Assembly: GCA_021810905.1 (NCBI GenBank)
Contig: JAJZQH010000010.1
Coordinates: forward strand, 62,001-126,000
From: a bacterium
GTDB lineage: Bacteria > UBA10199 > 2-02-FULL-44-16 > JAAZCA01
Direction: 5' to 3'
Length of the DNA stretch: 64,000 bases
In this document: piece after piece, positions 17,371-21,074 of the stretch
How positions within the stretch are numbered: the stretch's first letter is position 1
How the letters are laid out: each line of letters starts with the position of its first letter
Translations under genes and position numbers: made by a program
The notes under the pieces: generated by a model
The model's database searches: none
Seen by the model: the letters and a program-made list of their open reading frames with translations, nothing else
Told to the model about the DNA's origin: nothing

Positions 17371-17406
17371 CACCTTTCGGAACGACGGGTAAAATGGTTG
17401 CAACTT

Positions 17407-17808
17407 ATGGAAAAATCAGTAGAAAAATCTATCCAGGCCTGGTTCGGTCAGGCGCGTGAGGACTTGAAAACAGCGCACGCCCTCCTCAAATCGAAGAGGT
17501 ACACGTGGTGCGCTTTTGTATGCCAGCAATCGCTGGAGAAGTGCCTGAAAGCGGGTTACGTCAAGATCCACAAGAAAATTCCTCCGTATACGCATAAACT
17601 GGAATATCTCTGTCAGCTGCTTGATCTGCGTCCGCCGGAACACATCGTGGAAGTCATTATCAAGGTGGATAAATATTATATTGCTGCGCGCTATCCAACC
17701 TATAAGGAATCGATCAATATTTCTCGGAAAGATATTGCCGCCGAAATTTATTCTGAGACGAAGGAGGCCTTTCAATGGCTCTGCCGGATGTTCGCATTCA
17801 AAAAATGA
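17407..17808 (+). CDS. HEPN-domain protein (toxin of HEPN/MNT pair)
   Basis: 133 aa from the ATG at 17407; an in-frame TTG at 17398 is less likely. The HEPN hallmarks are AWFGQAREDLKTAHALL, FVCQQSLEKCLKAGYV and THKLEYLC, followed by AARYPTYKES. HEPN proteins paired with MNT proteins are RNase-type toxins. I do not see a clean R-x4-6-H motif, so nuclease activity is uncertain. It overlaps the MNT gene by 34 bp and starts 36 bp after the giant gene. Confidence 0.87.
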   Translation: MEKSVEKSIQAWFGQAREDLKTAHALLKSKRYTWCAFVCQQSLEKCLKAGYVKIHKKIPPYTHKLEYLCQLLDLRPPEHIVEVIIKVDKYYIAARYPTYKESINISRKDIAAEIYSETKEAFQWLCRMFAFKK

Positions 17809-18116
17809 TTGATCGTTTTCTTACCGTGCTCCAGGAAAGCGTTTCTGTGAAGGCAGTGTATCTCTTCGGCTCCTTTGCCAGGGGGAATGCGGGCGAATTC
17901 AGCGATATCGATCTCGCCGTGATTTCCCCTGTCTTTGAAAAGATGAAACCGTTTGAAAGGCTTGTATTCTTGGGAAGGGTCGCGTGGGAGGCAGGCACGC
18001 CCAGAATCGAAGCGATCGGCTTCACCCCACGCGAATTCGCATCTTCATCGCGCCTCGCATTTCCTTCGGAGATCAAAGAAAAAGGCATTGCTATGAATAT
18101 ACCGCGGGCGGCGTAA
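17775..18116 (+). CDS. MNT-type minimal nucleotidyltransferase (antitoxin of HEPN/MNT pair)
   Basis: 113 aa. It has the nucleotidyltransferase signature GSFARG-x-x-x-x-x-S-DIDLAV (GS-x10-D-x-D), so the catalytic aspartates are intact. In characterised type VII systems the MNT partner AMPylates and silences the HEPN toxin; the same is inferred here. It overlaps the HEPN gene by 34 bp. The TAA at 18114-18116 is followed directly, in the same frame, by the fragment paralogous to the giant protein's C-terminus. Confidence 0.88.
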   Translation: MALPDVRIQKMIDRFLTVLQESVSVKAVYLFGSFARGNAGEFSDIDLAVISPVFEKMKPFERLVFLGRVAWEAGTPRIEAIGFTPREFASSSRLAFPSEIKEKGIAMNIPRAA

Positions 18117-19809: not shown

Positions 19810-19882
19810 GGCGGCGTACCCAAATGGTTAAGGGGACGGTCTGCAAAACCGTTATTTACCGGTTCGATTCCGGTCGCCGCCT
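19810..19882 (+). tRNA. tRNA-Cys (GCA)
   Basis: A full cloverleaf can be drawn: acceptor GGCGGCG (19810-19816) pairs with CGCCGCC (19875-19881), the anticodon loop CTGCAAA (19841-19847) gives GCA at 19843-19845, and the T-arm is CCGGTTCGATTCCGG. The discriminator is T, and CCA is not encoded. It is followed by a strong intrinsic terminator at 19894-19930. Confidence 0.93.
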
Positions 19883-19893
19883 CAAAAACATGG

Positions 19894-19930: not shown

Positions 19931-20018
19931 GTTTTTCAGATGTTGCCCAGCGAGATTTCGAAAATTAACATGAAACTAGTTGATATTTTGGAGGTGCTTG
20001 TCTAATTCGTCAAAGGCG

Positions 20019-20723
20019 ATGGGAACCTTGGAGACCAAGAGAAACTCGATCTGGTGGCTTCAGATGTCGCAAGATGATCTGTGGTATCTTGTTGGCCTTC
20101 TTGCTGCGGATGGTTGTTTGAGTGGTGATGGGCGTCATATTGACATCACAGCAAAGGAACGTTCTTTCTTGGAATCTTTGAAACAGCGGTGCGGGATTCC
20201 CCAGAAAATTGCGCAAAAGAAAAACGGACGCGGCCAAATTGCACATCGTATTCAAATAGGTTCTGTTTCGTTTTATCGTTTTTTGCTCGATATCGGCATG
20301 ATGCCGAACAAATCGAAAAGGATTGGCGAGCTTCGTGTCCCGGATGATTCGTTTCATCATTTTTTGAGGGGCATCATTGACGGGGATGGTAGCATCCGGA
20401 GGTGGATCCATCCTTCAAACGGCGGAGAACAATGGTCGCTTCGTATCACTGGCGCCTCTAGGCCGTTTATGTCATGGCTCATGAGAGCGACACGGTGTCT
20501 CATGGGTGCGCTAGGGAAATTGCACGAAGAGACCAACGGAGCATCGGTGAAGTACATTTTGAAGTTTGGGAAGATAGCTGCTCAACGATTGTTGTCGATA
20601 TGTTACCGAGAAGGGGATGTTTCTCTAGAGAGAAAAGAGTTGTACGCGCGTCGTTGTATTCAATCGGAAAGGGGGTGGCGTCGGAGCAAAACAGTCCTTG
20701 ATCGATCAACGCTTTTTGCATAA
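20019..20723 (+). CDS. LAGLIDADG homing endonuclease, free-standing
   Basis: 234 aa from the ATG at 20019 (AAAGG upstream); a TTG at 19980 is possible. Two LAGLIDADG-like motifs, LVGLLAADG (residues ~23-31) and LRGIIDGDG (~110-118), both with the catalytic acidic residue, mark a double-motif monomeric endonuclease. The coding sequence is AT-richer than its neighbours. Its TAA (20721-20723) ends one base before the 5' end of the intron-split tRNA-Leu, so it sits outside the intron but next to its target. The likely cut site is the intronless tRNA-Leu anticodon loop; this is inferred. Confidence 0.88.
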   Translation: MGTLETKRNSIWWLQMSQDDLWYLVGLLAADGCLSGDGRHIDITAKERSFLESLKQRCGIPQKIAQKKNGRGQIAHRIQIGSVSFYRFLLDIGMMPNKSKRIGELRVPDDSFHHFLRGIIDGDGSIRRWIHPSNGGEQWSLRITGASRPFMSWLMRATRCLMGALGKLHEETNGASVKYILKFGKIAAQRLLSICYREGDVSLERKELYARRCIQSERGWRRSKTVLDRSTLFA

Positions 20724-20724
20724 C

Positions 20725-21074
20725 GCCCGGGTGGCGAAACTGGCAGACGCAAGGGACTCAGGGATGGGTCTCCCCTGCGGCAACGCAGGGGTAATAAACT
20801 GGGTGAATTCGGGGAAGCCCACCCCCTTCAATAGAAGGGCGGGTAATCCCGAGCCAAGCCGTGAAGGGACGTATCCGATTTTTTTGGTTAGGATGCGGGT
20901 TTTGCGGAAGGTGTAGAGACTAGAGGGTGAGCCCCAACGATAATCCCTCAATAGCGCCCAGCATCCGTTGTATCTACGGATGAAGAGATAGTCCATGCCG
21001 TGAGGAAACTTACGGGAACATGTAAAATCCCTCGGGGAGAAATCTCCATACCGGTTCGATTCCGGTCCCGGGCA
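20725..21074 (+). tRNA. tRNA-Leu (UAA), interrupted by a group I intron
   Basis: Exon 1 (20725-20758) runs from acceptor GCCCGGG to the anticodon-arm end AAGGGACT. Exon 2 (21023-21074) begins TAAAATCCCT, has a long variable arm typical of class II tRNA, a T-arm CCGGTTCGATTCCGG, and ends CCCGGGC plus discriminator A. Joined, the anticodon loop reads CTTAAAA, giving anticodon TAA. CCA is not encoded. Without splicing the cloverleaf would be disrupted by 264 nt. It could feed translation of UUA/UUG codons only after self-splicing. Confidence 0.9.
20759..21022 (+). ncRNA. Group I self-splicing intron (tRNA type, IC3-like)
   Basis: 264 nt. P1: exon GGGACU pairs with internal guide GGUCUC (20767-20772), placing a U-G wobble at the 5' splice site. 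P2: CCCTGCG/CGCAGGG capped by a GCAA tetraloop (20773-20790). Conserved elements: P at about 20805-20820, Q AATCCCGAGCCAAGCC (20845-20860), R around GTGTAGAGACTAGAGG (20911-20926) and S AAGAGATAGTCC (20983-20994). R and S pair as P7 (GACTA/TAGTC). The intron ends with the expected G (21022). These elements closely resemble those of cyanobacterial tRNA-Leu introns. No ORF lies inside it. Confidence 0.9.

Follow-up and report, generated by a model that had tools for sequence, protein, structure and literature searches.

The tRNA-Leu(UAA) gene at 20725-21074 on the forward strand of the window (the whole 64,000-nt stretch of DNA analysed) carries a genuine, essential-looking group I intron, whose lineage and insertion site are other than those of the cyanobacterial introns in the same gene. 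The best explanation, which we hold with considerable confidence, is that it is a self-splicing intron of a lineage specific for position 33|34, that it did not come from cyanobacteria but was probably gained horizontally, and that the LAGLIDADG endonuclease gene next to it is an independent neighbour. The tRNA-Leu(UAA) intron is the textbook case for intron age, cyanobacteria and plastids sharing one position. The window intron represents a second, distinct lineage, present in other bacteria, whose insertion point in that anticodon loop is shifted by a single base and whose kin occupy the equivalent position of tRNA-Phe and tRNA-Lys. The same gene therefore does not mean the same intron.

Host gene and splice site

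The gene consists of a 34-nt 5′ exon running from the acceptor to U33 (20725-20758, +), a 264-nt intron without an ORF that ends in G (20759-21022, +), and a 52-nt 3′ exon from U34 to the discriminator A (21023-21074, +). The 5′ exon is defined by ARAGORN and by alignment with intronless orthologues, the intron by RF00028 and covariation, and the 3′ exon by ARAGORN and recognition of the spliced tRNA. The covariance-model search (cmscan) places an RF00028 match at 20749-21015 (+) that spans all 253 model positions and scores 74.5 bits (E 4.5e-17), against a cut-off of 50 bits. With introns allowed, ARAGORN reports tRNA-Leu(UAA) with a 264-nt intron, and with introns disallowed it misses the gene. 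When 20725-20758 and 21023-21074 are joined, the product is an 86-nt tRNA-Leu(UAA), a canonical cloverleaf with a long variable arm, which ARAGORN recognises, whereas the unspliced form is not recognised. An earlier note, made from the sequence alone, had described a tRNA-Leu(UAA) split by a group I intron at exactly these coordinates, and both programs bear this out; the one correction to the gene ends is that CCA is not encoded in the 3′ exon.

The genomic DNA reads GGGACT|CAGGGA...AACATG|TAAAATCCC. Because the intronless orthologue in the same gene order (G005) reads GGGACTTAAAATCCC, a single junction is possible, GGGACU|UAAAAUCCC, that is, U33|U34. U33 lies opposite a G of P1 in 10/10 homologous introns, and all of them end in G. 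The splice-site U-G pair proposed earlier is thus present, but its U is U33 rather than U34.

Secondary structure and proposed splicing

The structure model, built on ten tRNA-Leu 33|34 (Leu33) introns, comprises P1, P2, P3, P4-P6a, P7, a P7.1-type hairpin, P8 and P9, all given here on the forward strand. P1 (20754-20771) pairs the exon sequence GGACU (20754-20758) with the guide (20767-20771), includes the U33-G wobble, and is paired in 100% of cells. P2 (20772-20791) has 8 bp and a GCAA tetraloop, and five of its pairs show compensatory change. P3 spans 20799-20961 (20799-20805 with 20955-20961), the P4-P6 domain 20808-20912, and P7, the guanosine-binding helix, 20918-20993 (20918-20922 with 20989-20993). 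The extra P7.1-type hairpin lies between P7 and P3 (20923-20949), with the stem GAGGG/CCCUC and the loop GUGAGNCCCAACRAUAAUC. P8 occupies 20962-20982, and P9, in which four pairs show compensatory change, 20998-21015. Every core element read earlier from the sequence, among them P1, a GNRA-capped P2 (here GCAA), P7 and the terminal G, is found, and the hairpin between P7 and P3 has to be added to that list.

Over the ten introns, 96.3% of cells are paired and 18 pairs have changed on both sides, against a mean of 6.7 in shuffles (0/500 as high). When partners are slid by one column, pairing falls to 47-50%, and over slides of one to three columns it is 35-50%. P3 and P7 themselves are mostly invariant. 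A candidate P10 (20761-20765 with 21027-21031) is paired in just 80% of cells and is tentative.

An intron of this structure would be expected to splice itself. The pre-tRNA would fold so that P1 sets U33 opposite the G of the internal guide, and an external guanosine bound in P7 would attack after U33. The freed U33 would then attack after the terminal G, joining the exons into the 86-nt tRNA, to which CCA would be added.

History of the locus

The ancestral gene order is a lipoprotein gene, tRNA-Cys, tRNA-Leu(UAA) and a phosphoribosyltransferase gene; the window retains the tRNA-Cys(GCA) neighbour at 19810-19883 (+). Six genomes of the window's phylum keep an intact tRNA-Leu without any insertion in this synteny (G002, G005, G008 [the window genome's family], G033, G034 and G037). 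The intron occurs alone in G035, which belongs to the same genus as the intronless G034, whereas G030 and G036 have just the endonuclease gene and the window has the two together. The tRNA-Leu loci of two further genomes of the window's family (G006, G007) were not found. Since the presence of the intron is patchy among sister genomes, its distribution points to a recent gain, with loss as the alternative. The window's lineage probably acquired the intron horizontally; we infer both the direction and the route of this transfer. At this tRNA locus, related genomes thus show the four possible states, with intron and endonuclease both present, either one alone, or neither, so that gain, loss and homing become directly testable.

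The LAGLIDADG endonuclease gene

The free-standing LAGLIDADG endonuclease gene (19980-20723, +) has its stop codon 1 nt before tRNA-Leu, and both catalytic motifs are intact. Its product matches Pfam LAGLIDADG_3 (PF14528, 5.6e-13), and the nearest solved structure is that of a putative homing endonuclease (PDB 2dch, 4.5e-9). The acidic residues D14 and D104/D106 are invariant across eight proteins of the family, and the protein is predicted to be an active endonuclease. Ten close relatives were found in eight further genomes of the phylum, each of them adjoining or overlapping a same-strand tRNA gene (Leu(UAA), Leu(CAG), Leu(AAG as called), Leu(CAA), Cys or Asp). The reading frame extends 10-80 nt into the tRNA gene in seven of the ten, and family members often have their stop codon inside it. 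In three more distant free-standing members, the gene ends at or within a tRNA-Ser gene. Association with tRNA genes thus holds for 11/11 close members, including that of the window, and for 14/14 free-standing members once the remoter three are counted, against a rough chance expectation of ~1.6% of genes. Lower-scoring long open frames are intein-like and do not lie near tRNA genes. When viral contigs were scanned with a single endonuclease protein there was no match, and an alignment scan found 80 remote viral relatives, of which 1/80 lies beside a tRNA gene and 79/80 do not. These patterns suggest that the endonuclease gene is a mobile element in its own right, one that resides at the borders of tRNA genes. 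This tRNA-anchored family, of which no description was found in the literature searched, is the less expected part of the locus. The phage T4 gene for SegB, placed between tRNA genes and with a target in the tRNA region according to a table in PMC2988022, is likewise free-standing and sited at tRNA genes. However, SegB is a GIY-YIG enzyme of a phage, whereas the window's gene encodes a LAGLIDADG protein on a bacterial chromosome and its family sits at single tRNA genes.

Collaborative homing, a principle described for phages (PMC2988022), would tie the two elements together. In its general form, in which the free-standing family homes to the edges of tRNA genes and here co-mobilises an ORF-less intron, we consider it unlikely. 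Somewhat less likely still is the specific version, in which the LAGLIDADG enzyme cuts an intronless tRNA-Leu near the anticodon or at its 5′ edge and repair copies the enzyme gene together with the intron. The closeness of the two is suggestive, as the 1-nt spacer and the 34-nt exon are all that separates the enzyme gene from the intron, as are the two intact motifs and the presence of the whole family at tRNA genes. Against this, the enzyme gene stands beside an intronless tRNA-Leu in two genomes and the intron stands without the enzyme in a third. Moreover, a search of 91 genomes belonging to the class where most of the other Leu33 introns occur yielded no member of the family; it had no positive control in that class, although the same query does recover members in the window's phylum. 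Because of this absence, the endonuclease is taken not to be required for the existence of the intron, and the adjacency of the two may be a coincidence of target preference.

Relatives of the intron

A core-pattern search of the named genomes yielded at least 117 stretches, for which splice sites were solved via the anticodon stem, the acceptor stem and P1, spurious low-scoring solutions being left out. Most comparison introns were drawn from one core pattern, and the sampling is biased to this intron type. Among the matches listed, the main host sites are tRNA-Asn 35|36 (many phyla) and tRNA-Phe 33|34 (Patescibacteria), followed by tRNA-Ile(CAU) 36|37 in beta-proteobacteria and tRNA-Lys(CUU) 33|34 in the window's phylum. 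Insertions at 33|34 of tRNA-Leu(UAA) are found, among the same matches, in the window genome, in G035 and in several genomes of another deltaproteobacteria-like class. The cyanobacterial introns lie in tRNA-Leu at 34|35 (Leu34) and in tRNA-Arg(CCU) at 36|37 (Arg36).

The core trees rest on ~200 columns. In the tree of 125 cores, the Leu33 introns form one clade (SH-aLRT 94) within a larger clade with the Phe33 introns (99*), and the cyanobacterial Leu34 introns pair with Arg36 (97*). A more careful tree of 71 cores recovers Leu33 with Phe33 (97/91), with Leu33 paraphyletic to Phe33. Constraining all 33|34 introns to group together gives a lnL 4.2 above that of the free tree. A clade of Leu33 and Lys33 without Phe33, as expected under local descent from the tRNA-Lys introns of the phylum, is 13.3 lnL units worse (p 0.157). 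In these core comparisons the window intron groups with the tRNA-Leu 33|34 introns of other deltaproteobacteria-like genomes and with the tRNA-Phe(GAA) 33|34 introns of Patescibacteria, and the tRNA-Lys(CUU) 33|34 introns of the window's phylum probably belong to the same group. The Leu, Phe and Lys introns share the site, a matching guide and core similarity. One lineage thus appears to occupy position 33|34 of several tRNAs (Leu-UAA, Phe-GAA and Lys-CUU) in deltaproteobacteria-like bacteria and Patescibacteria.

As the earlier note said, the host is not a cyanobacterium. Its further suggestion, that cyanobacterial or plastid tRNA-Leu introns are the source or a sibling, finds little favour in the site, the guide, the P7-P3 hairpin or the core tree. 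The introns of both kinds are ORF-less group I introns in the anticodon loop of the same tRNA and have the same ribozyme core class. The window intron might accordingly descend, vertically or by transfer, from the ancient tRNA-Leu(UAA) intron of cyanobacteria and plastids, its splice site having slid by one base. Forcing a joint Leu33 and Leu34 clade lowers lnL by 24.5 and is not rejected at the 5% level (p-AU 0.091), so a cyanobacterial link would survive the AU test taken by itself. However, the insertion site is 33|34 in 11/11 of the Leu introns of the window's type and 34|35 in 8/8 cyanobacterial ones, and the guide, by inspection, is GGGUCUC in the former and GAGCC in the latter. The P7-P3 hairpin is present in the Leu33, Lys33, Phe33, Thr36 and Ile36 introns inspected, and in most Asn35 introns, but absent from the cyanobacterial Leu34 introns inspected, which argues against simply equating the window intron with the cyanobacterial type. 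In the core tree against cyanobacterial tRNA-Leu introns, the check that the note itself had proposed, the intron falls away from the cyanobacterial set into another clade, that with the tRNA-Phe 33|34 introns noted above, and sister genomes lack it. Site, guide, hairpin and tree therefore all speak against a cyanobacterial link, and descent from the cyanobacterial/plastid intron is quite improbable.

The preferred reading, an intron of the 33|34 lineage, places its nearest kin in the tRNA-Phe genes of Patescibacteria. These introns have the same insertion site, form a sister or nested clade and share the loop motif of the P7.1-type hairpin, which by inspection is limited to Leu33 and most Phe33 introns; they differ in the tRNA and in the host phyla. 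Another non-cyanobacterial tRNA-Leu(UAA) intron, in this respect like that of the window, was reportedly found in a gamma-proteobacterium by Vepritskiy et al. in 2002. Given that report, and a 2025 title, quoted in PMC12641178, that announces a novel insertion site in a tRNA of Patescibacteria, non-cyanobacterial tRNA-Leu(UAA) introns are already known as a kind, of which the window intron is a variant.

Apparent dependence on splicing

The genome assembly has 2.98 Mb in 21 contigs and is 99.5% complete. An intact second tRNA-Leu(UAA), which the earlier note had named as the sign that the split copy is degenerate, does not occur among its 42 intact tRNAs. Six of the 4860 codons in the window genes checked are UUA, so that the split tRNA-Leu(UAA) would be needed under ordinary wobble rules. 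As neither an intact tRNA-Leu(UAA) nor an intact tRNA-Asn is found among the 42, both appear to depend on splicing, barring a further copy in an assembly gap. That the tRNA-Leu gene is a decayed pseudogene, its normal counterpart lying in an unassembled stretch, is very improbable: the assembly is in contigs and the tRNA list also seems to lack Ile-GAU and Ala-UGC, which commonly accompany rRNA operons, but the exons are canonical throughout and conserved in the orthologues, the intron core is intact with compensatory changes, and the genome is nearly complete.

Other group I introns and further observations

A second RF00028 match in the genome (G000:C17:13752-13996, 83.6 bits) marks a 242-nt intron at 35|36 of the sole tRNA-Asn(GUU) found (L001:1476-1793, G000:C17). 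ARAGORN named its host a tRNA-Thr; this was rejected on the basis of U1-A72, G73 and the fit of P1, which give tRNA-Asn(GUU), and the respliced host is called tRNA-Asn(gtt) by ARAGORN. Group I introns occur in 24/46 genomes of the window's phylum; the highest number of matches per genome is six (G037), and the host genes across the 46 are tRNA-Asn, tRNA-Lys, tRNA-Leu, tRNA-Met and 23S rRNA.

Three tRNA-Asn introns of 536-552 nt (L035, L040 and L041) have an HNH-endonuclease-like frame upstream of P3; in L035, the one checked, it matches Pfam HNH with an E of 0.0027, below the cut-off. A weak group I match in G008 (L054, C87; 46.1 bits) apparently interrupts a tmRNA gene in its 3′ portion, judging by eye from the flanks of the match. 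Five divergent tRNA-Asn introns (L047, L048, L049, L051 and L057), with a GGGCUAAGUC core, AAGAUAAAGUCC and the same site, suggest that introns entered this tRNA in a second wave. Elsewhere in the window, a HEPN gene at 17398-18116 precedes one for a nucleotidyltransferase within the same interval, the two making up a toxin-antitoxin-like pair of the HEPN-MNT type.
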